Shown here: piece by piece, positions 10,563 to 51,867 of the stretch
Layout of the letters: each line of letters opens with the position of its first letter
Numbering within the stretch: position 1 is the first letter of the stretch
Source of the DNA: Pirellulales bacterium
Lineage (GTDB): Bacteria > Planctomycetota > Planctomycetia > Pirellulales > JAEUIK01
Direction: 5' to 3'
Assembly: GCA_019745975.1 (NCBI GenBank)
Contig: JAIESQ010000093.1
Coordinates: forward strand, 1-64,000
Length of the DNA stretch: 64,000 bases
The notes under the pieces: model-generated
What the model saw: the letters and a program-made list of their open reading frames with translations, nothing else
Told to the model about the DNA's origin: nothing
Databases searched by the model: none
Translations under genes and position numbers: made by a program

Positions 10563-10584
10563 CTGCTCATTCGAGACTGCGATC

Positions 10585-30754: not shown

Positions 30755-30974
30755 CCAGCGCGCCACGGGCGGCAGCGTTTGTGTTTGCGTGTGTCCGAGG
30801 CGACGCTAGCAAACCTCTCCGTGGTGGCAGTTCCTACGCCTCCAGGCTTCGCAAAGCGCCTAGGCTGTCTCGTGCCGGCGGCTCGGGTTTCGTACAGTCC
30901 CGCGCGATGTCTTGAGCTCCACCAGCCGCGGCGACTAAATGCCGCGTCTCAGTCTTCGTTTGCCGAGGTACCCC

Positions 30975-32253: not shown

Positions 32254-32503
32254 AAACCCTGACTAGTTACTTGGTTGGGGTTGCTAGCCAGAGCAGCCAA
32301 CAGACCAAGTAAGCGGGTTTTTCTCCCGCTGGCAAGCGCACGCGGCCAAGGGGTCGCTCGTTGCGCAAAGCGAACGAGCCGCACGATCCGGCGCCTACTT
32401 GCGCGCCGCGCTCGTCGCGGTTTGGGTCCGTTTTTGGAAGAGGCACACTGGCGATTCACGTCCTTCGCACGCTCGTCTCCCTCGGAACAATCTCCGGATA
32501 TCG

Positions 32504-34213
32504 ATGGCCACGACGATGGACTCGTTCGCTGACATTCTGCTCCGGCAAGGAATCATCAGCGCAGACCAACTGGCCGAAGCCAAACAGTTGGCCAAGAACA
32601 CGCGAGTGACCTTGCAAGATGCCCTCGTGCGCCTTGGTTACGCCACCGGCGATGAGGTGATGCGGGCGATGGCCCAGTATCATAGCCTCGACTACGTCAA
32701 CCTGACGGAAGTCGTCATTCCCCCCTCGGTCGTCGAACTGGTTCCCGAGTCGGTTGCCCGCGAAAACGCCATCTTGCCGATGGCTGAAGAGGACGGGGCG
32801 ATCAAAGTCATCGTCAGCGATCCGTTGGACTACGACACGCAGGAAAAGCTGCGATTCATCCTCAATCGCGAAGTTCGCATCGCGCTGGCCCCCCGCGAAA
32901 TGATCCTCGAGGCGATCAACCGCCATTACGGCCAGTCGGAAGGCGAAAGCGCCGACTCGATGCTGCAGGAGTTCACCGACACCGCCATCGACTTCACGGA
33001 AACGGAGCAAGAGGCTCGTGGCCAGCAGGAAGTCGTCGACGAGAGCGCCGCGCCGATCGTCCGCATGGTGCAATTGATTGTTAAAGAGGCGGTGCAGTTG
33101 CGGGCATCGGACATTCACATCGAGCCGTTCGAAGACCGCATCCGGGTGCGCTACCGGATCGACGGCATGCTCGTCGAGCGGGACCGGGTTCCCCGGCGAC
33201 TGCACGGGGCGATCCTCTCCCGCATCAAGATCATGGCGAAGATGGACATTGCCGAGCGCCGCCGGCCCCAGGACGGCCGGATTAAGGTCTCTGAAGGGGC
33301 CAAGGAGCTCGATCTGCGGGTCAGCGTGCTGCCCAGCAACCACGGCCAGACCGTGGTCATGCGCATTCTAGACAAGGACAGTATCAAGGTCGGGCTGCGG
33401 CAGTTGGGGATGGCCGACGAGGTGTTTCGCACGTTCACCCAGTTGATTCGCCGGCCTAACGGAATCATCCTGGTAACCGGGCCGACCGGATCGGGCAAGA
33501 CCACGACGCTTTACGCCGGGCTCAACGAGCTCAATCGCCCGGACCGCAAGATCATCACCGCGGAGGACCCGGTTGAGTACTACCTGCCGGGAATCAACCA
33601 GGTCGAAGTAAAGCACAGCATTGGCCTGGACTTTGCGCGGATCATTCGCTCAATGCTCCGCCAGGCACCCAATATCATCCTGGTTGGCGAAATGCGCGAT
33701 CAGGAGACGGCGGAGATGGGGATTCAGGCTTCTTTGACTGGACACCTTGTTTTCAGTACACTGCATACGAACGATGCGCCCGGTGCTATTACACGAATGG
33801 TGGACATGGGTGTACCATCTTATCTGGTTGCAAGCAGCGTGATTGCCGTCTTGGCACAGCGATTGGTCCGCGTCATTTGCGGCAAATGCAAGCAACCCCA
33901 CACGCCGAGCGATGCTCAGCTCGAGGCCGCTGGTATCTCGAAGTCGCTGGCAGCGAAGGGCAACTTCATGAAGGGCAAGGGCTGCGGACATTGCCAGAAA
34001 AGCGGATACCGCGGCCGCATGGGCATCTACGAGTTGATGCTGATGAACTCGAAGGTGCGCGAGCTGGCCTTTGCCGGCGCGAGCACGCAAGACATACGTA
34101 AAGCCGCTATCGCACAAGGGATGCGCAGCTTGTATCAGGATGGCATCCTCAAGGTGCTCAAGGGACAAACCACAATCGAGGAGATATTCCGCGTTGCCAA
34201 GCGCGTCGACTGA
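32504..34213 (+). CDS. pilB: Type IV pilus/type II secretion assembly ATPase (PilB/GspE), copy 1
   Basis: 569 residues from the ATG at 32504 (ORF start at 32399 is upstream non-family sequence). The MshEN/T2SSE N-domain ('LVRLGYATGDEVMRAMAQYH') is present and can bind c-di-GMP in some relatives. The hexameric AAA+-like core has Walker A 'GPTGSGKTTT' near residue 330, an Asp box 'NIILVGEMRDQETAEM' and a His box 'HLVFSTLHTNDAPG'. A zinc clip of two CxxC pairs ('CGKCKQP', 'GCGHCQKSGYRGRMG') is typical of PilB/GspE and absent from PilT. It powers pseudopilus or pilus extension. Separated from pilT by 789 bases. Confidence 0.94.
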   Translation: MATTMDSFADILLRQGIISADQLAEAKQLAKNTRVTLQDALVRLGYATGDEVMRAMAQYHSLDYVNLTEVVIPPSVVELVPESVARENAILPMAEEDGAIKVIVSDPLDYDTQEKLRFILNREVRIALAPREMILEAINRHYGQSEGESADSMLQEFTDTAIDFTETEQEARGQQEVVDESAAPIVRMVQLIVKEAVQLRASDIHIEPFEDRIRVRYRIDGMLVERDRVPRRLHGAILSRIKIMAKMDIAERRRPQDGRIKVSEGAKELDLRVSVLPSNHGQTVVMRILDKDSIKVGLRQLGMADEVFRTFTQLIRRPNGIILVTGPTGSGKTTTLYAGLNELNRPDRKIITAEDPVEYYLPGINQVEVKHSIGLDFARIIRSMLRQAPNIILVGEMRDQETAEMGIQASLTGHLVFSTLHTNDAPGAITRMVDMGVPSYLVASSVIAVLAQRLVRVICGKCKQPHTPSDAQLEAAGISKSLAAKGNFMKGKGCGHCQKSGYRGRMGIYELMLMNSKVRELAFAGASTQDIRKAAIAQGMRSLYQDGILKVLKGQTTIEEIFRVAKRVD

Positions 34214-35002: not shown

Positions 35003-36142
35003 GTGGGTACTCTGCTCATCGACAAACTGCTGCAGACGGTGGTCAATCAAAAGGCCAGCGATCTGCACATCGCCGTCGGCCAGCCACCGGTGATCCGCCT
35101 CGACGGCCGCATGCGCCGGCTCGAAACCAAGGTGCTCGAGCCCGACGATACCGTGGCGCTGATGAAGAGCATCACGCCGGAGCGGTGCCAACAAGAATTG
35201 CAAGAAGTCGGCGGCACCGACTTCGGTTTTGCCTTCGGCACCGCCGCCCGATTCCGCGTCGCCATCTTCAAGCAGCGTGGCTGCGTGGGCATGGTGTTGC
35301 GGCGCATTCCCAACGAATTCATGACCTTCGAGCAGCTCATGCTCCCCAAGGTCTGCGCCGACTTGATCATGCGCCCCCGCGGGCTGTTTCTGGTGACCGG
35401 GCCAACGGGCTCGGGCAAGAGCACCAGCCTGGCCAGCATGATCAACTACCTGAATGAGAGCATCGATCACCACATCATCACGATCGAAGACCCGATCGAG
35501 TTTTATCACCAGCACAAGCGCTGCACGGTGAACCAGCGCGAGATCGGCGTCGATGTGCCGAGCTTTCCCGAGGCGATCCGCCGCGCACTGCGCATGGACC
35601 CCGATGTGATCCTGGTCGGCGAAATGCGCGACTTGGAAACGATCGAGGCGGCCATCACCGCGGCCGAAACCGGGCACGTCGTGTTCGGCACGCTGCACAC
35701 CACGGGGGCCGAAGGAACGGTCAACCGCATCATCGACGTGTTTCCCACCACACAGCAAGAACAGATTCGCGTGCAGCTCTCGACGTCGATCATCGCCGTG
35801 CTGTCGCAGCAGTTGCTCCCCAAGATCGGCGGCGGCCGCATCGCCGCTCACGAAATGCTGGTGGTCACGCCTGCCATCGCCAACCTGATTCGCGAAAACA
35901 AGACCTTCCGCATCACCTCGTCGATTCAAACCGGCGCCAAGTACGGCATGCAGCTCATGGACGACACACTCTTCAAGCTCTGGAAGAGCGGCATTTGCGC
36001 GAAGGAAGAAGTGATGATGAAAAGCAACAAGCCCGACGAACTGCAGGTCCGTATCGCGCGAGCTGAGAAGGGCTTGATGGAAGAAGAAGACGAACAAGGC
36101 GAGGGGGACAAGCCAGGACGCAACGGCGGCAAGGGGCACTAA
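35003..36142 (+). CDS. pilT: Twitching-motility retraction ATPase
   Basis: 379 residues from a GTG start, beginning 'LIDKLLQTVVNQKASDLHI'. Walker A 'GPTGSGKSTS' near residue 133, 'VGEMRDLETIEAAITAAETGH' (read in two parts) and 'FGTLHTTGA' are diagnostic of PilT rather than PilB; there is no zinc clip. PilT disassembles pilus fibres to drive retraction, so true type IV pili are implied, not only secretion. The C-terminus has an acidic/Gly tail. 60 bases separate it from the second PilB/GspE. Confidence 0.95.
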   Translation: MGTLLIDKLLQTVVNQKASDLHIAVGQPPVIRLDGRMRRLETKVLEPDDTVALMKSITPERCQQELQEVGGTDFGFAFGTAARFRVAIFKQRGCVGMVLRRIPNEFMTFEQLMLPKVCADLIMRPRGLFLVTGPTGSGKSTSLASMINYLNESIDHHIITIEDPIEFYHQHKRCTVNQREIGVDVPSFPEAIRRALRMDPDVILVGEMRDLETIEAAITAAETGHVVFGTLHTTGAEGTVNRIIDVFPTTQQEQIRVQLSTSIIAVLSQQLLPKIGGGRIAAHEMLVVTPAIANLIRENKTFRITSSIQTGAKYGMQLMDDTLFKLWKSGICAKEEVMMKSNKPDELQVRIARAEKGLMEEEDEQGEGDKPGRNGGKGH

Positions 36143-36202: not shown

Positions 36203-37921
36203 ATGGCGATTCGACGTATCGGCCAGATTCTGGTCGACCTGGGCTTCATCACCGACGATCAGCTCGAGCTCGTGCTCGAAGAGCAGCAGAATCGCCCGGG
36301 CGAACTGTTGGGCCGTGTCGCCGAGAGCATGGGGCTAATTAATGCCGAACAGCTCGCCCAGGCCCTGGCCGAACAGATGGGATTAAAGGTCATCAGTCTG
36401 GCCGATACGGTCGTGCCGCAGGACGTGCTCAATCACGTCACTGAGCCGATGGCGCAGCTCTATCGCATCGTGCCGGTGAGCTTCCGCGACAACACGCTTA
36501 CCGTAGCGATGTGCGATCCGCAGAAGCTCTCGGTGATCGACGAGCTGCGGAACTTTTTGGGTTACGACATTCGCGCCGTGGTCGCCACCGAAGCCGATGT
36601 TAAACGCGCCCTGGAGCGCTACTACGCCGGCGAAACCGAGAGCGTGGAGCAGCTCGTCGCCGGTATCGAAGAAGACGAAGACCTGGCGGCGGCCGCCGCC
36701 GCGCTCGAAAAAGAGGGGCCGATCGATCTCACCAGCGTCGAGGCCCTGGCCGATAGCGCGCCGGTCCGCAAGCTATTGAACATGGTGCTGCTGTTGGCCA
36801 TTAAGGAGCACGCCAGCGACTTGCACTTCGAGCCCTTCGAGGACGAGTTCAAGATTCGCGTCAAGGCCGACGGCGTGCTGTACGAGATGGTTCCCCCGCC
36901 GCGGCACCTGGCGTTTGCCATCACCACGCGCATCAAAGTGATGGCCAACCTCGACATCGCCGAGCGGCGCTTGCCGCAAGATGGCCGCATCGAGCTCACC
37001 GTGGGCGGGCACCCCGTCGACTTGCGCGTCGCCGTGCTCCCCACCATGTTCGGCGAAAGCGTCGTCATGCGCGTGCTCGACCGTTCCGTGGTCAACCTCG
37101 ATCTCAACGCCGTCGGCATGGGGGCCGGCACCTTGCAGAATTTTCGCGAGGTGATCGGCCGCCCCAACGGCATCATTCTGGTCACGGGGCCGACCGGTTC
37201 GGGCAAGACGACCACGCTCTACAGCGCGCTCTCCGAGCTCAATCACATTCACGACAAAATCATCACCACCGAAGACCCGATCGAGTACGACATCGACGGC
37301 ATCATCCAGGTGCCCATCGATTCGTCGATCGGCAACACGTTCGCGCAATGTCTGCGAGCGATCTTGCGGCAAGACCCCGACCGCATCCTGGTGGGTGAAA
37401 TCCGCGACCTGGAGACAGCCGAGATCGCCGTGCAGGCGTCGCTCACGGGTCACACGGTGTTCAGCACGCTGCACACCAACGACGCACCCAGCACCGTTAC
37501 GCGCTTGAAGGACATGGGAGTGCCACCGTTTTTGATCACGGCCACGGTCGAGGCCATTCTCGCCCAGCGGCTCGTGCGGCGCGTCTGCACGCAATGTCGC
37601 GAAGAAGTCAAGCCTTCGAACGAAATGCTGGTCGACTTGCAGCTCACGCCCAAGGACATCGCCGGCAAGAAGTTCTACCGGGGCCGCGGCTGCGACGTCT
37701 GCAACAACACTGGCTACAAGGGGCGCGTGGGGCTGTTCGAGCTGATGGTCATGAACGACGAGCTGCGCGACATGATCATCCGCAATGCCACGACCGACGA
37801 CCTGCGCGAATCGGCTCGTCGCCACGGCATGGTCTCCCTGCGCGACGCGGGCATGCAGCTCGCCTACGAAGGGGGCACCACGCTCGACGAAGTAATTCGC
37901 GAAACCGTACTCGATGCGTAA
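36203..37921 (+). CDS. gspE: Type IV pilus/type II secretion assembly ATPase (PilB/GspE), copy 2
   Basis: 572 residues. Begins 'RRIGQILVDLGFITDDQL', an MshEN-type N-domain, then an Ala/Glu linker. The core has Walker A 'GPTGSGKTTT' near 330, 'RILVGEIRDLETAEIA', 'VFSTLHTNDAPST' and the zinc clip 'CTQCREE/GCDVCNNTGYKGRVG'. A GGGGGGGGA run six bases upstream of the ATG area serves as ribosome-binding site. It is diverged from copy 1 by eye in the N-domain. Directly before gspF (62 bases), so this copy is the likely partner of that platform protein. Confidence 0.95.
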   Translation: MAIRRIGQILVDLGFITDDQLELVLEEQQNRPGELLGRVAESMGLINAEQLAQALAEQMGLKVISLADTVVPQDVLNHVTEPMAQLYRIVPVSFRDNTLTVAMCDPQKLSVIDELRNFLGYDIRAVVATEADVKRALERYYAGETESVEQLVAGIEEDEDLAAAAAALEKEGPIDLTSVEALADSAPVRKLLNMVLLLAIKEHASDLHFEPFEDEFKIRVKADGVLYEMVPPPRHLAFAITTRIKVMANLDIAERRLPQDGRIELTVGGHPVDLRVAVLPTMFGESVVMRVLDRSVVNLDLNAVGMGAGTLQNFREVIGRPNGIILVTGPTGSGKTTTLYSALSELNHIHDKIITTEDPIEYDIDGIIQVPIDSSIGNTFAQCLRAILRQDPDRILVGEIRDLETAEIAVQASLTGHTVFSTLHTNDAPSTVTRLKDMGVPPFLITATVEAILAQRLVRRVCTQCREEVKPSNEMLVDLQLTPKDIAGKKFYRGRGCDVCNNTGYKGRVGLFELMVMNDELRDMIIRNATTDDLRESARRHGMVSLRDAGMQLAYEGGTTLDEVIRETVLDA

Positions 37922-37983: not shown

Positions 37984-39315
37984 ATGCCAATCTATGTATT
38001 CGAGGCCATGGATGCCACGGGCGCCGAGATCAAGGACCAGCTCGAGGCCCCCAGCGAAGAAGAGGCACAAGCAACCATCCGCCAGATGGGCTACTTCGTC
38101 ACCAAGATCGCGGTGAAGAAGGCCCGCAAAGGCGCCGGCGACAAAAAGAAGAAGGACAAGAAAGGCAAGACTTTCACCATCGGCGGCGTCGGCGGCAAGC
38201 AGCTCACCACCTTCACGCGGCAATTGAGCATTTTGCAAGACGCCGGTCTGCCGATTCTGCGCAGCCTGCGAATTCTCGAAGGGCAGTCGAAGCCCGGGCG
38301 CTTGAAGAACTCGCTTATCGATGTCTGCGACGACATCGAAGCGGGCTCCACCTTGTCCGAAGCCATGGGCAAGGCCCCCAAGTGCTTCGACCGCCTGTAC
38401 ATCAACATGATCAAGGCGGGCGAAGCCGGCGGTGCGCTCGAAGTCATCCTGCGGCGCCTGGCCGAGTTCCAGGAGAAAGCCCAGTCACTGCGCCGCAAGG
38501 TGAAAGGGGCCATGATCTACCCGATCGTCGTGGTGTTGATCGCGGTGGTCATTCTCGTGTTGATCATGAAGTTCATCGTGCCGAGGTTCAAAACGATCTT
38601 TGAGGACTTCGAGACCGAACTGCCGCCGATGACCGAGTGGCTGATCTTCATCTCGGACATCGTCATTACCTACTTCTATCTGCTGCCGCTGGTCCCCGTC
38701 GGCATCTGGCTGTTCGTCAAGTTGGTGCGCAAGTTCGAGGCGGGCCGCTTCGGTTGGGACCTGTTCACGCTCAAGGTTCCGGTGTTCGGCGCCTTGATCG
38801 AAAAGAACATCATGGCCCGCACCAGCCGCACGTTGGGCACGTTGGTGGCCAGCGGCGTGCCGATCCTCGAAGCCCTCAACATCGCCCGCGAAACCAGCGG
38901 CAATGCCGTCTTCGAGCGGATGTACGGTCGGGTGTACGACGCCATTCGCGAAGGCGAATCGATCGCCCGACCCATGAAGGAAAACAGCCGCCCCGGCTTC
39001 AACTTCGTCACGGCCTTTTTCTGGATGGCATTCGTCGGCGGGCCGATCGGCCTGTTGATCTACGTGATGCGCATGAACTCCCGCATCGTCGACGACCTGG
39101 TGGTCAACATGGTCGACGTCGGCGAGGAGACGGGCGAACTCGACACCATGCTCTACAAGGTGGCCGATACCTACGACGAAGAAGTGGCCGTCCTCACCGA
39201 GAGCCTGGTGAGCTTGTTGGAACCGCTGCTGATCATCATCTTGGGCGGCATGGTGGGCTTCATCGTCATCGCCCTGTTCCTGCCGCTGATCAAACTGATT
39301 GAAACGTTGTCTTAG
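37984..39315 (+). CDS. gspF: Inner-membrane platform protein (PilC/GspF)
   Basis: 443 residues, longer than the usual 400-410. It links the ATPase to the pseudopilus in the cytoplasmic membrane. Two copies of the T2SSF domain: 'FTRQLSILQDAGLPILRSLRIL' and 'RTSRTLGTLVASGVPILEALNI'. The C-terminal 'VGEETGELDTMLYKVADTYDEEV' and final helix are standard. Near residues 335-370 there is an extra hydrophobic stretch ('FNFVTAFFWMAFVGGPIGLL') between the second domain's 'ARPMKE' and 'NMVDVGEETG', which could add a membrane segment. A 19-bp inverted repeat follows 30 bases after the stop. Confidence 0.94.
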   Translation: MPIYVFEAMDATGAEIKDQLEAPSEEEAQATIRQMGYFVTKIAVKKARKGAGDKKKKDKKGKTFTIGGVGGKQLTTFTRQLSILQDAGLPILRSLRILEGQSKPGRLKNSLIDVCDDIEAGSTLSEAMGKAPKCFDRLYINMIKAGEAGGALEVILRRLAEFQEKAQSLRRKVKGAMIYPIVVVLIAVVILVLIMKFIVPRFKTIFEDFETELPPMTEWLIFISDIVITYFYLLPLVPVGIWLFVKLVRKFEAGRFGWDLFTLKVPVFGALIEKNIMARTSRTLGTLVASGVPILEALNIARETSGNAVFERMYGRVYDAIREGESIARPMKENSRPGFNFVTAFFWMAFVGGPIGLLIYVMRMNSRIVDDLVVNMVDVGEETGELDTMLYKVADTYDEEVAVLTESLVSLLEPLLIIILGGMVGFIVIALFLPLIKLIETLS

Positions 39316-39345
39316 AGAACCATTGAACAATAAGTGCAGTGACAA

Positions 39346-39412
39346 AAGCCCAGGGAAGACCGTCGTAACCGCTCGATTGTCGGTAGCCGCGCAGACGGTC
39401 TTCCCTGGGCTT
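39346..39412. repeat. 67-base inverted repeat between gspF and the first pseudopilin
   Basis: Perfect 19-bp arms (AAGCCCAGGGAAGACCGTC and its complement) around a 29-base loop. Similar in size to the 74-base elements further down but different in sequence. As RNA it would be a stable hairpin 22 bases before the pseudopilin ATG. Confidence 0.85.
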
Positions 39413-39433
39413 GCGATCAAAAGGACTTTTCAC

Positions 39434-40543
39434 ATGCAACTTTCCCCGACTCGCGCCCCCCGCGCGGGCTTTACGCTCATCGAGCTGTTGATGGTGATCT
39501 TCTTGATCGGCATTTTGGCCACGATCCTGGGGTATGCCGCGAATAAGGCACTTCGCACCGCGCGGCAAACCCGCATCCTGGCCGAGATCGAGCAGTTGAA
39601 TACCGCTGTCGAGACTTATAAATCGGAGCGCGGATCGTACCCTCCAACTTGGGGCAACTTTCTTGTCGAATCGCAATCGGCCAATGCGAAGCGACAACGA
39701 ATACAACGCCATGTGAGCAAATCGTTTCCGCGTTACACCGGCGATTACAACGCCATTCGAACGCAAATCTCATTGGCCACCGCTTACGTCCCCCCGAATT
39801 ACACGCAAGATGTCGCGGCGGGACGCCCCCTGGCGCTCACCTATACAGCACAAGCGGCTGGTCTACCGGGCGGTGGACTCGACATCGAGAATCTTGACCC
39901 TGCCGAAACACTTGTGTTCTGGCTTGGCGGGCTCCCCGATCCCACCTCAGCAACAAAACTGGCAGGCTTTCGAGCGGACGCGACTAGTCCGTTCGTAGAC
40001 GCTTCACAAGTCGGCGCGCCACAACCCGTCCCCGCGTCACAACTGCCTGGGAGAACTCCTCCGGCGTATCGGTTTGATCCATCACGATTAGTCGATCGCG
40101 ATGGCGACGGCTGGTGGGAGTATTTGCAGGCGGGTGCGAAGGCCGACGACAACGTTCCACCGTTGGTCTACTTCGACAATCTGGTATATGGCCTGAGCGT
40201 CAGCTATCCAGCCGTCAATCCTCCTTCAGGAACGGCCGGTAACGAAGCTGCGTCACATGCCATGCAGTGGGGCACGATTCTTCCGTACGCGAGCGATGGT
40301 CCGTCACAGCTCAATCCGACCAAGCTCGTCACTTGGGTGAATTCTCAGACTTATCAGATCATCGCCTGCGGACTGGACGGACAGTACGACTCGCCATCCG
40401 ATACGCGAACGCCAGTCAATCAGAATCCAGGCTTCAACGCCATCGACGATTTGGAGTATTGGCCCTCGGGTCGCAACTTCGAGCAAGAAGATTACGACAA
40501 CCTGACGAATTTCCACCCGGGGCCACTGTCGGACGCGTTTTAG
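39434..40543 (+). CDS. gspG: Type II secretion/type IV pseudopilin (GspG-like)
   Basis: 369 residues from the ATG at 39434, giving a normal 12-residue leader before the cleavage site 'RAG/FTLIELLMVIFLIGIL' (Phe+1, Glu+5). The ORF start at 39299 would run through the inverted repeat and is not used. After the helix comes 'ALRTARQTRILAEIEQLNTA', typical of major pseudopilins, and 'YKSERGSYPP'. The globular part is about 250 residues, twice that of GspG, with 'DRDGDGWWEY' near residue 220 that looks like a calcium-type loop. The stop TAG is directly followed by ATG of the next gene. Confidence 0.9.
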   Translation: MQLSPTRAPRAGFTLIELLMVIFLIGILATILGYAANKALRTARQTRILAEIEQLNTAVETYKSERGSYPPTWGNFLVESQSANAKRQRIQRHVSKSFPRYTGDYNAIRTQISLATAYVPPNYTQDVAAGRPLALTYTAQAAGLPGGGLDIENLDPAETLVFWLGGLPDPTSATKLAGFRADATSPFVDASQVGAPQPVPASQLPGRTPPAYRFDPSRLVDRDGDGWWEYLQAGAKADDNVPPLVYFDNLVYGLSVSYPAVNPPSGTAGNEAASHAMQWGTILPYASDGPSQLNPTKLVTWVNSQTYQIIACGLDGQYDSPSDTRTPVNQNPGFNAIDDLEYWPSGRNFEQEDYDNLTNFHPGPLSDAF

Positions 40544-42151
40544 ATGATCCGCTACACTTCGATCAACGCCGACGCAGCACTCGCAGAGTGTGTGAAACAC
40601 ACCGGCCCGCTCACCCGGCCGCAACTTCGTTGCGTCCACCCTCTCCCACGAGGAGAGAGGGGTGTTGTAGTTGCGTGCGCCAAACGCACCGGCCGGGTGC
40701 CACTGGCGGCGCCAGTGCCACGCATTTCTCCCTCTCCCTTGATGGGAGAGGGCCGGGGTGAGGGTGACGTTCGTAGGGTGTGTGAAACACACCACGATCC
40801 AGCGTCGGGTGCCACTGCTGGCTTGTCCAGCAGTGCCTCGATCTCTGTCGCGCGCGATTCTGGTGTGCTGCGCACACCCTACGAGTCTGTCGCCGGTTTC
40901 ACCGGCGCTGGCCCGGGGTCACTGACCCCGGCTACAGTTTGGGCGCGCCGTCGTGGCTTTACGCTCATCGAAGTCCTGGTCGTGATCACGATCATCGGGA
41001 TCATTGCCGGGCTGGGGCTGGGCGCGCTATTTCAGGCGCAAGAAGTCGCCCGCCGCTCGCGCACCAAGGGGCTCATCGCCCGGCTGCACACGCAAATGGC
41101 CTCGCGCTGGGACAGCTACCGCACGCGGCGCTTGCCGATCGACTTTTACGATCCAGCGACTGGTGGCGCCATCGCCAACGCGAGTGGCCAACCGGGTAAA
41201 TTTTTCGATCCGGCTACGCCTGGCTTGCCACGACGAGCGAATGGTGCGATCGCCTCCGGCATCGCCGGCTTGAAACTGGCCGCGCTCCGCGAGCTGATGC
41301 GGATGGAATTGCCCGATCGCTATAACGATCTGCTCTTTCCGCCCGACCCGCAGATTTGGACGAACGCTCAGAATCCGGCGGGCACGATGATCGCCAATCT
41401 GAGCGACTATCAAGACGGAAGCAATCAGAGGATTCCGACGTTTCCGGCCTTGCGCATGGCTTATCTGCGGCGCGTCCAGGCGATCAATCCTAGTCGCCGC
41501 GTCTACGACATCATTTACGATCCGACGACCGGCCTCGCGCGTCAAAATCAACGCGCCGAGTGCCTGTATCTGATCATGACGACCGGTTTCGCCGACGAGA
41601 ATGACGACATCCCCTGGCACCCGCGCGACGTGGCCGACACCGATAACGACGGCATGCCCGAGTTCGTCGACGGCTGGGGGACGCCGATCGAGTGGATTCG
41701 CTGGCCGGCCGGTTTTTACTCCGAGCTGCAGCCGATCGGCCCCTCGGGCGACCACGACGCGACGACGAGTCCCGATCCCTTCGACCCGCGCGGCGTCGAT
41801 CGCGTGGCGTACGATTCCAGTCAGCCGCAACGAACGCCGCGCGGCTATGCCCTCTTCCCATTGATCATGTCAGCGGGACCTGATGGCTCAGGCCGCAACG
41901 ACCCCCGCGGCGCGTTTGGCGTCTGGTCATTTCCAACGACCGAGGCAAGTTCCCAACAGGGTTTGCGTGACCCTTATTTTTATCATTCCGAGTCGCCAGG
42001 ATTGCAGAGTGTACTTACCGGCCCGTCTGGCCCTCCTACTTATCAGTTTGGGACAGTCATTCCACCCTCCGATTTCGGAAATGACGGGTTCTACGCCGGC
42101 GGCAGCGCCGACGACAACATTCACAACCATCAGATCGACGCCCGGCAATGA
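40544..42151 (+). CDS. Pseudopilin 2, with a 138-residue leader encoded by palindromic repeats
   Basis: The frame is open from the ATG at 40544 (abutting the previous stop, TAG-ATG) for 535 codons. The prepilin site 'RRRG/FTLIEVLVVITIIGII' occurs only at residue 138. Residues 10-130 are translated palindromic repeats and contain no recognisable domain. Between the GTG at 40865 and the cleavage site there is no ATG, GTG or TTG, so translation must start inside or upstream of repeat DNA. The mature part has the N-terminal helix and a globular domain ending near 'DFGNDGFYAGGSADDN'. A role in the pseudopilus is by family. True start: 40544 (coupled) or 40865 (31-residue leader); I cannot decide. 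Confidence 0.8.
   Translation: MIRYTSINADAALAECVKHTGPLTRPQLRCVHPLPRGERGVVVACAKRTGRVPLAAPVPRISPSPLMGEGRGEGDVRRVCETHHDPASGATAGLSSSASISVARDSGVLRTPYESVAGFTGAGPGSLTPATVWARRRGFTLIEVLVVITIIGIIAGLGLGALFQAQEVARRSRTKGLIARLHTQMASRWDSYRTRRLPIDFYDPATGGAIANASGQPGKFFDPATPGLPRRANGAIASGIAGLKLAALRELMRMELPDRYNDLLFPPDPQIWTNAQNPAGTMIANLSDYQDGSNQRIPTFPALRMAYLRRVQAINPSRRVYDIIYDPTTGLARQNQRAECLYLIMTTGFADENDDIPWHPRDVADTDNDGMPEFVDGWGTPIEWIRWPAGFYSELQPIGPSGDHDATTSPDPFDPRGVDRVAYDSSQPQRTPRGYALFPLIMSAGPDGSGRNDPRGAFGVWSFPTTEASSQQGLRDPYFYHSESPGLQSVLTGPSGPPTYQFGTVIPPSDFGNDGFYAGGSADDNIHNHQIDARQ
40588..40931. repeat. Cluster of nine short palindromic modules inside the pseudopilin 2 leader
   Basis: In order: GTGTGTGAAACACAC (40588), an imperfect CCCTCTCC hairpin (40637), GTGCG-CCAAA-CGCAC (40675), CACTGGC-GGC-GCCAGTG (40701), CCCTCTCCC-TTGAT-GGGAGAGGG (40730), GGTGTGTGAAACACACC (40777), GGGTGCCACTGCTGG hairpin (40807), GGTGTGCTGCGCACACC (40862), and CCGGGGTC-ACT-GACCCCGG (40913). 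Modules recur elsewhere in the pilus locus. They resemble REP/MITE-type DNA with no transposase in the window. Confidence 0.88.
40807..40882 (+). repeat. 76-base composite element, copy 1
   Basis: A GGGTGCCACTGCTGG-type hairpin (29 bases), a 26-base spacer and a GGTGTGCTGCGCACACC-type palindrome ending in CTAC. Copy 2 at 42261 has the same parts, order, orientation, spacing and reading frame. Confidence 0.85.
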
Positions 42152-43530
42152 CACGCGGTGATGTGCACAACTTGAACGTCAAGGGGGACGGGAGTCGTTT
42201 CCGGGCTGCGACTTCGCGCACGCCGATGGCAATCTCCCGGAAACGACTCCCGTCCCCATCGGGTGCCACTGCTGGCTTGCCCAGCAGTGTGTCGCTGGGC
42301 ATCGCGCCCGAACCTGGTGTGCTGCGCACACCCTACTGGAATCGCCCCGGCTTCACCCTCGTCGAGCTGTTGGTGACGCTCGTGATCATCATGATGCTCA
42401 CGGCGATCGCGGTGCCGGTGCTGGCGCCGGCCTTGGCCGGGCGGCGGCAGCGCGAAGCCAGCCGCGAAGTCACCAGCTACTTCGCCCTGGCGCGCGACAC
42501 GGCCATGCGCACGGGCCGGGCGACCGGCGTGATGCTCGAACGCTTCACCGGCGCCGGTAATGCCAGCGCTAAGGCGCTCATCGCGGCCGGCTTGCCTCCC
42601 ACGCCGGTGCCCGAGATGTGCCTGACGCTCTGGCAGGTCGAGGTGCCGCCCCCGTACAGTGGCGACACGCTCTACTCGCGCGCGTTTGTGCTCGGTGGCT
42701 TCGGCGTCGGCCAGATCGCCGCCATAGTCACGCCCGGCAGCAGCGTCCCCGAAGCCTATGGGTTGGTGCGGATCGGTGACACCATCAAATTCAACACGCA
42801 GGGACATCTGTATCAGATCATCGGCGGCACCCCAGACACGACGATCTCGCCCAATCCGACGGGCCTGCTCGCGCCGCCGACGCCGGGCGCTCCCTGGACG
42901 ATCATGCCGATCGGCGGCACCACGGCGTTTGTGCCAAGCTTCGCGCTGGGGGTGCCCTATCAGATCATGCGCCAGCCGGTGAAGACTTCGGCGCCGCCGC
43001 TGCAACTCCCCGAGGGGATCGTGGTTGACCTGGCGGCGTCGGGCATGACGCCGCAGTGGACAGGCAGCGTGCCACCGTACGCAGGCTTTAACCCGGCAAA
43101 CGTTGCATTCACGGCAAGTTTCTGCCCGTTGGACGCGACCGGCGCGCCGCAGTTTCCCAGCGATTCGATTCCCATCATCGTGCTCTTTTCGCCGACCGGA
43201 TCAGTCGAACGGATGGCGTTCTCCGGGCCGAATCCGAGCAATGCCTCGCAGCCGATGCCGTTCGCCGTGCCCCCCACGACGCCGATCTTTCTGCTCTTGG
43301 GGCAACGCGAGAAAGTGCCGGCGGCCAGCAACGTCAACAACGAGAACTGGCGCGACGCCACGAATTTGTGGATCACGATCTTCCCGCAGACGGGGCTCGT
43401 GACCAGCACGGAGAATGTGCCGCTCAATCCGCCGTCGGGGCAACCGTTCGCCACGCCGGGTGGCTACGCGGGTGACTTGATGGCCGCGCGCCGCCTGGCC
43501 CTCGAAGGCCAGACGCTGGGAGGGCGGTAA
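42148..43530 (+). CDS. Pseudopilin 3 (GspH-like), with a 68-residue repeat-encoded leader
   Basis: The ATG at 42148 overlaps the previous stop (ATGA). The prepilin site 'NRPG/FTLVELLVTLVIIMML' is at residue 68. The leader is encoded by a 74-base inverted repeat and the second 76-base composite element. A GTG at 42319, inside the composite element, would give a normal 11-residue leader; no other standard start lies between it and the cleavage site. The mature helix and 'REASREVTSYFALARDTAMRTG' match the GspH/FimT group. The globular domain is long (about 350 residues). Confidence 0.82.
   Translation: MTRGDVHNLNVKGDGSRFRAATSRTPMAISRKRLPSPSGATAGLPSSVSLGIAPEPGVLRTPYWNRPGFTLVELLVTLVIIMMLTAIAVPVLAPALAGRRQREASREVTSYFALARDTAMRTGRATGVMLERFTGAGNASAKALIAAGLPPTPVPEMCLTLWQVEVPPPYSGDTLYSRAFVLGGFGVGQIAAIVTPGSSVPEAYGLVRIGDTIKFNTQGHLYQIIGGTPDTTISPNPTGLLAPPTPGAPWTIMPIGGTTAFVPSFALGVPYQIMRQPVKTSAPPLQLPEGIVVDLAASGMTPQWTGSVPPYAGFNPANVAFTASFCPLDATGAPQFPSDSIPIIVLFSPTGSVERMAFSGPNPSNASQPMPFAVPPTTPIFLLLGQREKVPAASNVNNENWRDATNLWITIFPQTGLVTSTENVPLNPPSGQPFATPGGYAGDLMAARRLALEGQTLGGR
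42184..42257. repeat. 74-base inverted repeat, copy 1
   Basis: Arms of 21 to 22 bp built on GGGACGGGAGTCGTTTCC and its complement with a 30-base loop. The same arms occur at 43599-43804 and 51394-51467. Copy 3 is also 74 bases but has a different loop. Confidence 0.9.
42261..42336 (+). repeat. 76-base composite element, copy 2
   Basis: Same architecture as 40807-40882, including the 26-base spacer. Translated in the same frame, both read 'GATAGL-SS-S ... GVLRTPY'. The element ends 12 bases before the prepilin Gly codon. Confidence 0.85.
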
Positions 43531-43532
43531 CC

Positions 43533-45344
<1,812 letters not shown>

Positions 45345-45352
45345 GCGTTTTG

Positions 45353-45504
45353 TAGGGTGTGCGCAGCACACCAACTCCCTCTCCTTTGACGGGGTGAGCG
45401 ACCAATTTAGTAGGGTTTGCGCAGCACACCAACGGGATGCCGCCGAAGCACTGGTGTGCTTCGCACACCCTACGGAGAATCCCTCTCCCACGAAGGGGGA
45501 GGGC
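45353..45504. repeat. Palindromic repeat cluster between pseudopilin 4 and gspK-like gene
   Basis: GTAGGGTGTGCGCAGCACACC at 45353 (given as consensus of 45353 and 45411, differing by one base), an inverted copy GGTGTGCTTCGCACACCCTAC at 45454, and a CCCTCTCCC hairpin at 45482. It lies just after the pseudopilin stop; the next gene starts about 60 bases later. Confidence 0.85.
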
Positions 45505-45563
45505 AGTAGTTCAGCCAGAGCCACTATTAAGCCAGAGAAGAAGTCATCCACCAGGGGCCCTGA

Positions 45564-48500
45564 GTGGAACAGAACATCATGTCGCGTCGAACTGAGCACC
45601 GTGTCGTGCGTCGCGCGCGGCCGCGCCGCGGGATCATTTTGTTGTTCGTGATGGCGCTGTTGGCGCTGTTCGCGCTGGTGACGGTCACCTTCGTGATCGT
45701 GGCCCACGCGCACAAGGTCTCCGCGCGCCATGCCACCGCGGTCGAGCGCAACTTTGATACGTCCAAGGCGCTCCTCGATCGCGCGGCGCAGCAGATCCTG
45801 GTGGGGTCCGTCGACCCGCACTCGTCGATCGCTCCTCACGGCCTGCTCGAAGACATGTACGGCAACGACGGGCTGCTGGGGACCATCGTGCCGACCACGA
45901 TTCCGAGCCTGCCGACGACTCCCTTCGCCCAGTACGGCCAGGTGCTGCGCTTCACGGTGGATTTCGGTAGCAGCAGCCCCTACCTGGTGGGCGCGCTCTC
46001 GGGGCGCGTGCTGACGATCACCACGGGGCAACTCAAGGATCATAGTTGGCGGATTCTGAACTACGATCCGCGCTACGGGCTCGTGAGCGTGCTGGTCGAG
46101 GATGTCGACGCCACGATCGCCGCGACGCAGTTGAGCCAGGGTGATCGCGTGCTGGTCAACGGCCGGGCGTTCAACGGTACCGGCTTCGGTTTGGATATTG
46201 GTCCAACCATGGTCGGCGTCTTGACGCGTGCTGCGACCGCAGCGCCGCCGCAAGCAATCGATGCGACTTTTCCCTTCCTGGGATCGCTCGATCCAGTGAG
46301 CACCGGCGAATATGCGTTGTTGCCGAATGCGAAGTTCTTCACCCCTGATATGACGCCGCTGCCAAACCCCAGCAACCCCTCAACCACGATTCCCAAGTAT
46401 TTCGACGTGGCTGGCCCCGGCGGCGCCGACGAAGATGTTGACGTGCCCGACATGCAGAACATGCTGCTGGCGTTCGAGCGCGCTCCATTGCCCCCTTATG
46501 CTGATGCGCCAGTGGCAATCCCCTCGCTGCACCGCCCCGAGCTGGTGCACTACTGGATGCAAAAGATCGCGGCGCTCGGCGGCAGCGTCACCTATCCGCC
46601 TTCGAGCCCGTCGCCGACCGGCCCGACGTTCGTGCAGCTTTGGAATTCTGGATTGCCGGCCCAGCGCATTCTGCGCCGCGCCATGCTACGCCCGGTCGGC
46701 GGATTTCCCGGCGCCGACCATCCCGATTTCACCGGCAGCAACCCCAGCCCCTTGGGGTTTGATCCGGTGCTCGGCGGCCGCGGTCTCGACACCAACAGCG
46801 ACGGCACGCCCGACTTGCTCTTCTCCTGGGATGTCGACAACGACGGCGACGGCGTGCCCGACAGCATTTGGGTCGATATCGGCCTGCCGCCGCGGGCTGG
46901 CCCCGACGGGCGGATGGTCAAACCGCTCGTGGCGGTGCTGTGCCTCGACCAGGACGGCAAGCTGAATCTCAACGCCCACGGCACGCTCGTGCAATCGCAG
47001 GAACTGCTCCGCGACTACCAGGTGCTTTCTTCTTCGGGAAGCTTCACGCCCGCGCAATTGCCCCAGGCCATGCTGAATTGGCCGCTGCCGCTGCCGGCCG
47101 CGAGCGCCGGCGGCCCGATCGCATCGCTGTTTGGCTATCCGTTCCCACCCGCCGGCACCAACGGCTCGCAAACGGTGATCCTGCCCGAGGGCTTTGGCTA
47201 CGGACCGGCCGAGATCAATTTGCGACCGTTGTTCGTCACGAATCCGGCCGAGTATCTGCGGCTGTTGCAAGGTTGGCCGACAAACATGAACGACTGGCCG
47301 AGCGCCGGCTCGCTCAATCCGCCCGTGCGCGTCGATGGCCGCTATGGCGAATCGCAGCGCTTTGCAGCGGGCACATCGCCGCCGCTGTTTCCAATTCCCG
47401 GCGGTCTGCCTGGCGCGGCGCCCGACATTCGACTGAGCTGGCAAGGGCGCTGGCGGCAGTTCGACTTGCCGAACAGCTATTGGGATATCCGGCCCCTGAA
47501 AACTCCGCCGATCGTGCCGAACCCGCCGACCGAATTCACCACACCGGCCGATCTCAACGGCGACGGCTCCGTGGCGTACGACACGCACGGGCAGCCGATC
47601 TACCGCAGCGCCAGCGAGGGGGACCTGTCGAGCGGCATCTATGAGAAAACCGCCAGTCAGTACGACATCGACTTGTCGCGCCGCGCGCAGCGCGGCCGGG
47701 CGATCAACGCCTCGCAGACCAGCGGGGTCGATAGCCCCTTCACGCCGGCCGAGTGGGAACGGCTGCTGCGCTACGGCGACGTCGACTCGGCGAGCATGCC
47801 GCGGCGGTTGATCGACCTGGCCTCGAGCGCCTTCGAGACCGGCGCGGCGCCAGGCCAATCGCCCAACCTGATTCAGGCCGCCATCAATCGCAAGCTGGTG
47901 ACCACCGAGAGCTGGGACGTGAACGTGCCATCGATGCTGCCGACGATGGAGCTCGGCGGCGACATGGCGGCCACGGGATCCATCCCCTTCAACATGCAGT
48001 TGACCGACCTGGTGTTCAGCCGGCTGAAGCTGAGCGGCTTCGTCACATCGATGTCGGCCAGCGAACTGGTGAAAGCCAACACGGCACTGCAAAAGCTGCT
48101 GCCGTGGGACCTGCTGGCCGGCGTGAAGCTGGACATCAATCGACCGTTTGGCAACGGCCGCGACGACACCGCGCCGAACCAGCCCGGCTTCGGCGTCGTC
48201 GACGAACCGCTGGCGTACGCCGGCGGGCAGGTCACCAGCGAAGTGATCGGTCCCGATCGCTCGGGCCGGCCCGGCGAATGGCTCTGGGAAGATCCGGCCA
48301 ACCCGTTGCCGATCGTCATGGCGGCCGGCGCGCGGATGGATCACAACAACGACGGGCTCCACCAGCCGACGAGCATTTCGGGCCCGCCGGCGGCGATGTT
48401 CAACGCCGACGGGAACGATCTGTTGGCGCGGCAGCTCTATGCGCGGCACCTGTACATCATGATGTGCAGCCTGTTCGATCAGAAGCTGATCGCGCTGATC

Positions 48501-51383
48501 ATCAAGATTCAAAATGACCAGGTGACCGACCCGGCCGAAAAGTGGGTGGCTCTCGACGTCTATCGCCGCTTCGCGCAGTGGGCGGTCAACGTGGTCGACT
48601 CGCGCGACAGCGACGCGATCATGACCCCCTTCGAGTTTGACGCCACGCCGTTCAACGACGACACGGGCGCGGGGGTCACCTGGAACGTCGACGACAACCC
48701 CGGCACGGCCGAAGCCCCGGCGACAGGCCCCCCGTATCGCGGCCTGGTGTGGGGGTGCGAGCGCCCCGAGCTGTTGATCACCGAGTCGATCGCCTGGCAC
48801 GATCGCCGCACGGCGGACACCAAGGCCGACACGCAGAAGATGAACTCGGTCCATCAGCCCGACATGGGTCGCCCGCCCGATAACGACTACGACCAGGTCC
48901 GCCGGCCGCAAGGGGCGGTGTTCTTCGAGTTGTATGTCCCTTGGAATCCGCCCGTGAAGAGCCAGAGCTCGCCGCAGGCGACTGTGTGGGGCACCGGGAG
49001 CATGCCGCCGGCTGAGTTTTACCACTACGACCCGGCGACCGATCGCTACTCGTTCCAGCTCGACCGCACCGCGCCCAACGGCGACCCCGTCTGGCGGATG
49101 GCGGTCGTGAACGCCGATCGCGATGTGGACGAATGCCCTGACAATCCGCGCTCGCCGGTTTCGACCAATCCGACCAAGATCGACCGCGCGATTTACTTCA
49201 CGACCAACAGCGGCCGGGTGTCGGCGATCTCGCCAGCCACTGAAGAGCCCTTCTTGCGGCAAGGCGGCCCTGCCCAGATCCTGATTCCGCCCTGTGGATA
49301 CGCCGTGATCGGCGGCGATGCCTCGACTGTGATGCGCGGGCAGAGCGGCGGCGCCGGCAGCACGTTCGACCTGAACATGGGGGCCAACCCGCAAACGACC
49401 TCCGGCGTGTCGATCGACGGTAACGGTTCGCAGATTCACGGCAACTTGGGCCGGCCGCTGGGACCGATCGGCATCGTCATCGATCAGACGCCGGCCGGTC
49501 AGCGACGCTTGAGCTTGTCGGAGCCGTACAAAGGCTCGGCCGGCGACAACTACACCACGGAGGACGATTCCGCCACGGTCAACGACGGCACCCCTTGGGA
49601 CGCGAGCAATACGATCCTGCAAGCGCAGCCGACGACGATGAACGGCACCGCGCTCAAGAAGTTCACGGTTTTCTTGCAGCGGTTGGCTAATCCGCTCTTG
49701 CCGTGGAACCCGGAATCGGGGCGGACCGGCTACAACTCGAATCTGCCGATCAACCCCTACCTGACGGTCGACATGACGTACGTCGACCTGACGGTCTACA
49801 ACAGCGAGCCGCCGCAGACGACCGGGGACGAGCCTGGCATTCCGCCCACGCCGACTCCCCCCTTCAAGTTTGAGACCCGCGAACGCGGCTTCGTTGAGCA
49901 GCAGCGGCCGAACATCTGGTCGAGCAACTTCTCGCCGACGTCGGGCCAGGGACCCGGCGCGGGGGACCCGATCAGGCTGACCTCGGGCAAGCAAACGCTC
50001 GGCTACCTGAACCGCGTGTTCGGCACGCCACTGGCCAACGGCAACCCGTACGACGCGGCACTGGGCGCCGGGCAGACGGTCTATCGCGGCGATCCGCAGC
50101 TCAGCACGCTGCAAGCCCCCTTCCCGGCGTTTCCCTGGCTCAACCGGCCGTTCATCAATCCTTATGAGTTGATGATGATCCCGGTGGCGCACCCGTTCGA
50201 GCTGTTGTTTGGCTACGTGGTGCGCGATCCGTCGATCAGTGCGGCGAACCTGGCCGACCCGACCAAGAATCCTTACATCATTCCGTATCAAAATCTGCCG
50301 AACGGCGATCCGTTCCGGGTCATGCCGTACGGGATGCTTGGCCCGATGTACATGTCGATGCCGATTCCCCCTGCCGTGGTGCCGTCAGGGATCTCTCCAC
50401 CGGCGTACTCGCTGCCGAACTTTTTCCGCCTGATGGACTTCGTGCAGGTGCCCAGCCGGTTCACCGGGACGGAGACGATCCTCAACCCCGCGCCGACGAA
50501 CACGGCCTTCGGGGTGTGGCCGCCGGCGCTTCCCGAAACGTTGCCGCGCGGCCTCTACCCGCCGTTCAACCGCGTGCCGCGGTTCCGCGAGCCGGGCAAG
50601 GTGAACATCAACACCATCGCGCACGGCAACGTCTGGCTGGGGTTGACGAACGGCACGACCGACACGCCGGTTGTGGGCGGACCCGCCCCGGCACTACAGC
50701 AAACGACCATCCAGTGGATGAAGCTGATGCTCAGCCGCCGCGGCAGCAACCCCGCCAGCCTGGCGAACTTCATCACGGCTCCCGACCCGGTGCCGAACTT
50801 GCTCGTCGATCCGCCACGCGATCGCACCGGCGGCTTGCTGCCGACGTACTTCGCGACACCGTTCCGCTCGTACGCCGGCTCGTACATGGTGCCGACGGCC
50901 AACATGCGGATGTTCAATCTGGGGGTCATGTCGGCCATACCGCTGCAGCTACCGCGAAATGAGGTTGACGCGACCTTGCTGCGCGTCGATCCGATGACCG
51001 GCATGACGCCGCTCTTCTCCAATGCCGTGCAGTTGAACTCGTCGGGCACACCCACGCCGGTTACCGGTCCGCCGTATGCCGACCCCGTCGGCAACCCGGC
51101 CACGTTCTATAAGTCGCTGCACAAGATTGGCGGGTTGGTCACCAACCGCTCGAACGTGTATGCCGTGTGGCTGACGCTGGGCTTCTTCGAGTGCGAGAAG
51201 GTGCCGGAGGACGAAGGGCACCCCGATGGCTACCGGCTGGGGCGCGAGGCGGCGGTCGACACGGGCGAAGTGCGCCGGCATCGGGCGTTCTTCATCGTCG
51301 ATCGTTCGATTCCGGTCGGCTTCCAGCGCGGCGAAGCCCACAACTCGGAGAAAGCGATTCTGCTGAAGCGGTTTATCGAGTAG
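45564..51383 (+). CDS. Giant GspK-like minor pseudopilin
   Basis: 1,939 residues (GspK is usually about 320). GTG at 45564 or ATG at 45579. The N-terminus 'RARPRRG/IILLFVMALLALFAL' is a prepilin site without Glu+5, as in GspK. Two GspK-type motifs are present but about 1,200 residues apart: 'CLDQDGKLNLNAHG' near 465 and 'REPGKVNINTIAHG' near 1,678. Between and around them lie Pro/Asn/Asp-rich beta-type sequences, with 'DTNSDGTPD' and 'DVDNDGDGVPD' near 410-430 resembling calcium-binding loops. GspK caps the pseudopilus tip with GspI and GspJ. The 1,201-residue minus-strand ORF over it is a shadow. Last gene of the locus. Confidence 0.8.
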   Translation: MEQNIMSRRTEHRVVRRARPRRGIILLFVMALLALFALVTVTFVIVAHAHKVSARHATAVERNFDTSKALLDRAAQQILVGSVDPHSSIAPHGLLEDMYGNDGLLGTIVPTTIPSLPTTPFAQYGQVLRFTVDFGSSSPYLVGALSGRVLTITTGQLKDHSWRILNYDPRYGLVSVLVEDVDATIAATQLSQGDRVLVNGRAFNGTGFGLDIGPTMVGVLTRAATAAPPQAIDATFPFLGSLDPVSTGEYALLPNAKFFTPDMTPLPNPSNPSTTIPKYFDVAGPGGADEDVDVPDMQNMLLAFERAPLPPYADAPVAIPSLHRPELVHYWMQKIAALGGSVTYPPSSPSPTGPTFVQLWNSGLPAQRILRRAMLRPVGGFPGADHPDFTGSNPSPLGFDPVLGGRGLDTNSDGTPDLLFSWDVDNDGDGVPDSIWVDIGLPPRAGPDGRMVKPLVAVLCLDQDGKLNLNAHGTLVQSQELLRDYQVLSSSGSFTPAQLPQAMLNWPLPLPAASAGGPIASLFGYPFPPAGTNGSQTVILPEGFGYGPAEINLRPLFVTNPAEYLRLLQGWPTNMNDWPSAGSLNPPVRVDGRYGESQRFAAGTSPPLFPIPGGLPGAAPDIRLSWQGRWRQFDLPNSYWDIRPLKTPPIVPNPPTEFTTPADLNGDGSVAYDTHGQPIYRSASEGDLSSGIYEKTASQYDIDLSRRAQRGRAINASQTSGVDSPFTPAEWERLLRYGDVDSASMPRRLIDLASSAFETGAAPGQSPNLIQAAINRKLVTTESWDVNVPSMLPTMELGGDMAATGSIPFNMQLTDLVFSRLKLSGFVTSMSASELVKANTALQKLLPWDLLAGVKLDINRPFGNGRDDTAPNQPGFGVVDEPLAYAGGQVTSEVIGPDRSGRPGEWLWEDPANPLPIVMAAGARMDHNNDGLHQPTSISGPPAAMFNADGNDLLARQLYARHLYIMMCSLFDQKLIALIIKIQNDQVTDPAEKWVALDVYRRFAQWAVNVVDSRDSDAIMTPFEFDATPFNDDTGAGVTWNVDDNPGTAEAPATGPPYRGLVWGCERPELLITESIAWHDRRTADTKADTQKMNSVHQPDMGRPPDNDYDQVRRPQGAVFFELYVPWNPPVKSQSSPQATVWGTGSMPPAEFYHYDPATDRYSFQLDRTAPNGDPVWRMAVVNADRDVDECPDNPRSPVSTNPTKIDRAIYFTTNSGRVSAISPATEEPFLRQGGPAQILIPPCGYAVIGGDASTVMRGQSGGAGSTFDLNMGANPQTTSGVSIDGNGSQIHGNLGRPLGPIGIVIDQTPAGQRRLSLSEPYKGSAGDNYTTEDDSATVNDGTPWDASNTILQAQPTTMNGTALKKFTVFLQRLANPLLPWNPESGRTGYNSNLPINPYLTVDMTYVDLTVYNSEPPQTTGDEPGIPPTPTPPFKFETRERGFVEQQRPNIWSSNFSPTSGQGPGAGDPIRLTSGKQTLGYLNRVFGTPLANGNPYDAALGAGQTVYRGDPQLSTLQAPFPAFPWLNRPFINPYELMMIPVAHPFELLFGYVVRDPSISAANLADPTKNPYIIPYQNLPNGDPFRVMPYGMLGPMYMSMPIPPAVVPSGISPPAYSLPNFFRLMDFVQVPSRFTGTETILNPAPTNTAFGVWPPALPETLPRGLYPPFNRVPRFREPGKVNINTIAHGNVWLGLTNGTTDTPVVGGPAPALQQTTIQWMKLMLSRRGSNPASLANFITAPDPVPNLLVDPPRDRTGGLLPTYFATPFRSYAGSYMVPTANMRMFNLGVMSAIPLQLPRNEVDATLLRVDPMTGMTPLFSNAVQLNSSGTPTPVTGPPYADPVGNPATFYKSLHKIGGLVTNRSNVYAVWLTLGFFECEKVPEDEGHPDGYRLGREAAVDTGEVRRHRAFFIVDRSIPVGFQRGEAHNSEKAILLKRFIE

Positions 51384-51393
51384 TCATGACCAA

Positions 51394-51467
51394 GGGGACG
51401 GGAGTCGTTTCCGGCCGGAAGCGGTGGTGTTCGGAATTGTCGTTGACCGGAAACGACTCCCGTCCCC
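51394..51467. repeat. 74-base inverted repeat, copy 3
   Basis: Same 21-bp arms as at 42184 and 43599, same total length as copy 1, with a different 32-base interior. It begins ten bases after the gspK-like stop and may act as a 3' hairpin of the pilus transcript. Confidence 0.9.
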
Positions 51468-51867
51468 CTCAGCGCGACCCCAGCCAGCCACGACGAACCC
51501 TTGCTGCGGTGCGGGCTTGTGTAAGGGCGCCATGCGTGGTGGCGCCAACTCACAACACCGCGCCACAATAGCCCGAAGCGTAGCGAGGGAATCGCCCCTG
51601 GTTCGAAGCTGCCGAAGGTGTCAGGAACAGCTCGGCACGTTCGTCGGTTGCCAAAGCCGCTCGCTCGTCGGTTCCAGACACCGCCGCGCCGCACAGACTG
51701 CGCCACCGGCACGAACCCCGGAACGTTCGCAGACTCGCGAAATTTCCTATTCTCTTGCGGCGCGGCGCGCCGATGTTCTCTCTGTCGTCATACCGGCAGG
51801 GTCGCCGGTTGCGCTGGCTTGTCGCCCCTGTGACCGAGCCGGATCCACGGAAGGGTGGGCTAACGCC
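51468..51867 (+). other. 400-base stretch upstream of fliW
   Basis: The ORF that runs from 51424 into fliW is low-complexity and not family-like before the ATG at 51868. It contains a 'CCCGAAGCGTAGCGAGGGA' motif similar to one at 34610. I see no clear promoter. Confidence 0.45.

Follow-up and report, generated by a model that had tools for sequence, protein, structure and literature searches.

The question raised by this locus is what kind of protein carries the leader and the motifs of GspK, a small protein thought to cap the filaments of type II secretion systems and type IV pili, and yet is 1,939 residues long. The gene (45564..51383) lies in a stretch of 64,000 nucleotides of Pirellulales DNA, here called the window. 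It is an intact open reading frame on the forward strand with a GTG start and without an internal stop, and it is present as a single copy in its genome. A full-length homologue covers residues 5-1939 of the encoded protein with 42% identity, and matches at the protein level are found in 173 of 197 Pirellulales genomes (147 of 160 among the good ones), and thus the frame represents a real gene. An antisense open reading frame of 1,201 codons (46686-50291, reverse strand) was taken as a codon-usage shadow of the giant frame and not as a gene. Immediately 3' of the giant gene (51424-52308) lies the gene of a FliW-family protein whose N-terminus is extended by about 150 residues. The protein, hereafter giant K, can be divided as follows.

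45564..51383, + strand: giant GspK-type pseudopilin, 1,939 residues (open reading frame, homologues, synteny, profile comparison)
45606..45698, + strand: prepilin leader and hydrophobic helix, residues 15-45, with Phe and not Glu at position +5
46788..46988, + strand: first GspK landmark, residues 409-475, with D-x-D-x-D-G loops, DSIWVDIG and DQDGKLNLN (profile match to mid-size relatives)
47031..48578, + strand: partly helical region, residues 490-1005, absent from small GspK (AF2 helices, sister-family alignment)
48573..48641, + strand: second GspK landmark, residues 1004-1026, AQWAVNVVDSRDSDAIMTPFEFD, equivalent of GspK DYIDxD (profile matches)
48741..49808, + strand: place of the lamin-tail-type beta-sandwich of relatives, residues ~1060-1415, enlarged in the window protein (column alignment)
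50142..50186, + strand: third GspK landmark, residues 1527-1541, NRPFINPYEL, corresponding to GspK N-P--S--EL (tiles 1455-1604, sister family)
50595..50615, + strand: fourth GspK landmark, GKVNINT, residues 1678-1684 (best match GspK columns 250-256, E 2e-4)
51126..51380, + strand: C-terminal segment, residues 1855-1939, RSNVYAVWLTLGFFE...FIVDRS, equivalent of the last GspK pilin-sheet strands

The class III prepilin leader, RARPRRG/IILLFVMALLALFALV, with predicted cleavage after G23, is followed by a hydrophobic helix, which is the one hydrophobic segment of the protein. Comparable leaders are present in 23/23 family members, and the leader helix aligns with the N-terminus of GspK with an hhalign probability of 86%. 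GKLNLN occupies residues 465-470 and GKVNINT residues 1678-1684, a spacing of about 1,210 residues, so that the reading frame, the prepilin site and the two motifs reported in a preliminary description of this DNA were all confirmed. That description had also seen a Pro/Asp/Asn-rich sequence with calcium-type loops between the motifs. Such loops do occur there, namely two weaker ones (663 and 926), but the composition is shared by the entire protein instead of setting residues 470-1670 apart: the Pro content is 11.7% in this span, 11.0% before it and 10.0% after it, Asp amounts to 8.6% before the span versus 6.4% inside, and the clearest loops, DTNSDG at 409 and DVDNDGDG at 423 (residues 409-433), are situated just ahead of it.

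The relationship to GspK becomes visible at the level of the family, and it is at this level that the earlier designation as a GspK-like pseudopilin is supported. The window protein alone has no match to the GspK/T2SSK models of Pfam and NCBIfam at E<=1, 20 members from the order searched singly against Pfam gave nothing at E 0.1, and a PDB sequence-profile search gave no credible match. Mid-size relatives of 860-1,320 residues bridge the window family to true GspK. NCBIfam NF037980 (GspK) matches P0004 at 3.2e-10, P0002 at 8.3e-7 and P0003 at 2.2e-5, each of them under the equivalog cut-off. In L260, Pfam T2SSK scores 39.3 bits, over its gathering score of 24.2. In profile comparisons, the mid-size family matches true planctomycete GspK in its C-terminal part (hhalign 97.6%, E 4e-12, 122 columns) as well as in its N-terminal part (95.5%, E 1e-8), and the window family matches the mid-size family at the first landmark (97.1%, E 7e-11), at the N-terminus (94%, E 1e-7) and at the C-terminus (91.4%, E 9e-7). 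The mid-size relatives that are matched by the C-terminal segment of the window protein match GspK with their own C-terminal part at E 6e-15.

When the window protein was tiled and compared with GspK without presetting positions, the 8 best of 31 tiles were collinear (Spearman 0.99; the tiles overlap, and about six of the 8 are independent), while the other 23 showed no order. Apart from those at the N-terminal helix and at the NINT motif, single-tile matches are weak. The resulting order of landmarks is leader (23), DQDGKLNLN (462), VVDSRDSD (1010), NRPFINPYEL (1529), GKVNINT (1678) and RSNVYAVW (1862). The first landmark aligns with the NLN strand of GspK; the second reaches 63.5% to the f76 relatives at the matching motif and 98.7%, E 4e-16, to a sister family; tiles 1455-1604, which contain the third, have their best match at GspK columns 202-215 (E 0.027). 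The view that the two GspK motifs are parted by a foreign insert is misleading, because VVD-RD-D (~1010) and NRPF--YEL (~1529) are found inside the supposed insert and in GspK order.

What lies between the landmarks differs in its relation to known proteins. Residues 490-1005 matched no known family; within this region a TT-SWD motif near residue 780 is conserved. Ahead of DYxDxD, P0002, P0003, the sister family and the window protein (~780) have a T-x-x-S-[FW]-D motif and, behind it, an additional L-[ND]-[IL]-N. This stretch resembles LTVYS...NINTA of GspK, and an internal duplication would be a possible explanation of the likeness. Further downstream, mid-size relatives have a predicted lamin-tail-type beta-sandwich between the DYxDxD and GKxNxNT landmarks, which follows the sequence 'YG-E-QPFISELY' and sits inside the GspK part. 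Pfam LTD (PF00932) matches P0002 at 1.1e-4 and three other relatives at 0.001-0.005, none of these matches reaching the gathering score. The AF2 model of P0002, which has the order helix-strand-helices-strands and is poor overall (pLDDT 51, pTM 0.32), has as its best PDB matches in Foldseek the Ig folds of Lamin-B1 (E 3e-5, probability 1.00; TM 0.67 on target).

For the window protein itself the presence of the sandwich is inferred by alignment, its own middle model being without a relative in the PDB; Pfam LTD has no match to the window protein. An alignment links the sister family to the window protein, and where the sandwich starts the sister family can also be aligned to the relatives (VWGCERPELLITE ... 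FFELYVPW), the latter matches being weak by themselves (hhalign 4-17%). In the AF2 model, residues 470-1669 form a compact body (pTM 0.79, mean pLDDT 65) with, as expected, a helical stretch at 942-1013 and then a strand-rich part at 1022-1412, but Foldseek found no match for it in the PDB and viral libraries. The structure prediction proposed in the preliminary description thus yielded a compact body without a structural relative in these libraries. The lamin-tail-type beta-sandwich, detected in the mid-size relatives, is the sole module found by homology. The idea that giant K carries an adhesin is possible but unproven.

The distribution of the family speaks to the same issue. With a profile of the sister family A2 (built from L074-L076, about 1,550-1,700 residues), which aligns end to end with the window family (hhalign 100%, E 4e-70, 1,365 columns), 112 of 119 Planctomycetia genomes are matched (108 of 114 good ones); the matched proteins mostly have 1,550-2,900 residues, many matches being partial and some open frames being cut by contig ends. 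The homologue search shows residues 470-1670 to be conserved along their length across Planctomycetia, and they do not behave as the separate insert that had been assumed. In view of this class-wide conservation at giant size, the long form is normal for the class and does not go back to a recent insertion into a single protein: giant K is a standard part of Planctomycetia surface machinery and no isolated case that carries a stray insert. Named relatives are mostly from Pirellulales and allied Planctomycetia, and a phylum sample of 246 genomes was mostly negative outside Planctomycetia at the sensitivity used, with distant members in open frames of 864-1,333 residues. A scan of genome contigs with the single window sequence gave no match, but repetition with an alignment in its place did; a plasmid search with a 1.5-kb piece gave no match. 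Six other genomes of the phylum (G067, G443, G425, G018, G527, G062) encode two proteins of roughly 900-1,650 residues each with a GspK-like leader, in G527 on one contig and a few kb apart. A Pirellulales-type giant K gene is also borne by a contig labelled Candidatus Nealsonbacteria (L151), which is probably a mislabelled or contaminated bin.

The genes that precede giant K form a conserved run.

32399..34213, + strand: first PilB/GspE-type ATPase, at the start of the conserved run (NCBIfam GspE 612 bits, PilB 610 bits, both under cut-offs)
35003..36142, + strand: PilT retraction ATPase (NCBIfam TIGR01420 452.8 bits, over the curated cut-off of 319.1)
36203..37921, + strand: second PilB/GspE-type extension ATPase with MshEN domain (Pfam T2SSE 2e-135; NCBIfam PilB 626 bits, below the curated equivalog cut-off)
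37984..39315, + strand: GspF/PilC platform protein (Pfam T2SSF 7e-61)
39299..40543, + strand: pseudopilin pp1, GspG-like leader G/FTLIELL, Glu5 (NCBIfam GspG 9e-10, below cut-off)
40544..42151, + strand: pseudopilin pp2, leader G/FTLIEVL, Glu5 (Pfam N_methyl 5e-9)
42148..43530, + strand: pseudopilin pp3, leader G/FTLVELL, Glu5 (Pfam N_methyl 9e-7)
43533..45344, + strand: pseudopilin pp4, PilV/GspI-like leader G/ISLLEVL, Glu5 (NCBIfam PilV 9e-7, below cut-off)

Hence a PilB-like ATPase, PilT, a second PilB-like ATPase, GspF and four pseudopilins with Glu5 are followed by the Glu5-less K as the last gene; Glu5 is present in pp1-pp4 (4/4) versus 0/23 members of the giant-K family. In all 17 order-level loci that were opened, giant K follows four pseudopilins, with GspF and PilB ahead of them except in L071, where these were unmatched, and the first ATPase is syntenic in sampled loci. 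In three class-level loci the run was partly matched; L074 combines four genes of the machinery with six pseudopilins, of which the last is a protein of 1,569 residues. Pseudopilin runs that end with a large protein devoid of Glu5 also occur in other classes of the phylum. The earlier proposal of a tip protein, which is an inference, agrees with the synteny and the missing Glu5.

In L074 a GspJ-like pseudopilin of 486 residues (9561-11021) is encoded between the PilV/GspI-like one and K, at a place where the window has just 219 bp between pp4 and K (45345-45563), so that Pirellulales seem to have lost or merged J. An open reading frame of 429 residues without a Pfam or NCBIfam match (30939-32228) directly precedes the pilus run. 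No GspC, GspD, GspL or GspM was recognised beside the giant K gene with Pfam and NCBIfam models. The genome encodes four secretins, all away from the giant-K operon; two of the four secretin-bearing open frames (L271, L274) are very long (1,434 and 1,641 residues). A search for PilY1 in 48 genomes of the order was silent, as were its controls. A separate, compact gsp operon is located on contig C185 of the same genome (L275, 3624-13106), with E-F-G-H-I-J-K and a GspL-like open reading frame as judged by layout. Its K has a normal size, at most 618 residues (Pfam T2SSK_1st 3.6e-17), and therefore giant K is not the only GspK of the organism. A scan of the genome with Pfam PF03934 gave weak matches, most of which are not GspK and one of which is a true GspK.

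Taken together, giant K is an undescribed GspK variant far outside the known size range that is normal for its class, and the reading to which we assign a probability of about two in three makes it a giant minor pilin of the GspK type, placed at the tip of a filament that PilT can retract. The leader would be trimmed by prepilin peptidase, and the protein and its neighbours would then cap the filament tip, in the manner of GspK and GspI/J. The filament would be extended on the GspF platform by the PilB-type ATPases, PilT would retract it, and an outer-membrane secretin encoded elsewhere would let it through. The filament would thereby present a large exposed head, probably partly calcium-binding, to the surroundings, and a putative function of this head would be binding to a surface or polymer.

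The run could also be regarded as an ordinary pseudopilus of the type II secretion kind, with giant K as the large tip of a secretion piston that recognises periplasmic cargo and with PilT as a bystander. The GspE-, GspF- and GspG-like matches in the run fit such a machine, and a probable equivalent operon of Planctopirus has been annotated as type II secretion (PMC10632474). However, a PilT over its cut-off lies inside the run, GspC/D/L/M genes were not recognised next to it, and the same genome has a separate gsp operon of a more classical kind, the GspK of which is of normal size, so that we regard this explanation as rather improbable. Less credit still is given to a membrane-anchored periplasmic scaffold with a pilin-like signal that is not built into a filament: the very large size, the missing Glu5 and the one hydrophobic segment would all be compatible with it, but the fixed place at the end of a pseudopilin run and the homology of the C-terminus to pilin strands argue against it, and true small GspK proteins, when aligned, are also devoid of Glu5.

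The least likely explanation, and in our view a very improbable one, is an ordinary GspK that has acquired an adhesin cassette of about 1,200 residues as a discrete unit. The distance of about 1,210 residues between the two motifs suggests it at first sight, and modular pilins onto which adhesion modules have been grafted are known (PMC8179133). Against it, GspK landmarks lie within the supposed cassette, no adhesin family of Pfam or NCBIfam is matched, and conservation extends over the length of the protein in both the order and the class, the class-wide alignment in particular weakening this explanation.

Read as the tip pilin of a retractable filament, giant K can be compared with several known systems. 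With GspK/XcpX (Pfam T2SSK PF03934, PF21687; NCBIfam NF037980) it shares the leader without Glu5, the place as last pseudopilin and the order of landmarks, i.e. NLN, DYxDxD, N-P--S--EL, GKxNxNT and the C-terminal strands. GspK likewise has an extra domain inserted in its pilin sheet (PMC8179133) and binds calcium (PMC6211770). In contrast, giant K is about six times longer (1,939 residues versus typically about 300-500), has an extra helical region of about 500 residues and the lamin-tail-type sandwich (shown in relatives), escapes recognition by GspK models and is encoded in an operon with PilT. In the modular type IV pilin PilB of Streptococcus sanguinis, an extra domain follows a small pilin module (PMC8179133), whereas the additions of giant K lie inside a GspK-type protein, which with its 1,939 residues has over twice the 860 residues of the most extreme modular pilin cited (PMC8179133). 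Like giant K, the Verru_Chthon cassette protein A (NCBIfam TIGR02600, 1,296 positions) is giant and is encoded beside pilin-like proteins B, C and D; TIGR02600 matches L224 at the leader and P0004 at the C-terminus, in both cases weakly, and the models of B, C and D have weak matches among the neighbours of the window protein. It was rejected as the family of giant K, the window protein being unmatched and no sampled genome of the class reaching the cut-off. With the retractable type IVa pilus the run shares PilT, a PilB-type ATPase and PilC.

The closest described counterpart may be Plim_0410-0401 of Planctopirus limnophila, in which four genes annotated as type II secretion are followed by six Planctomycetes-restricted genes whose function was left unexplained (PMC10632474). 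This layout of four plus six genes is the same as that of the L074 version of the giant-K run, and to judge from it the two operons probably correspond to each other. A core protein of a whole class, which has no Pfam or NCBIfam family, is now placed as the K-type part of a probably retractable filament. This makes the machine a candidate for the maker of the pili-like fibres of planctomycetes and for the entry of large molecules: such fibres have been observed on crateriform outer-membrane structures, and the uptake route of macromolecules was left uncharacterised (Boedeker et al., PMC5394234). The connection of giant K to the crater-associated fibres and to dextran uptake (PMC5394234) is circumstantial, and it is offered as a tentative, rather speculative extension that a PilT-driven machine might make these fibres and that giant K might be its tip and bind the ligand; macromolecules would be bound outside the cell and pulled into the enlarged periplasm as the fibre retracts. 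As the probable equivalent operon belongs to the genetically tractable Planctopirus limnophila, for which gene-deletion tools are available (PMC11958385), the giant-K hypothesis is open to experimental test.
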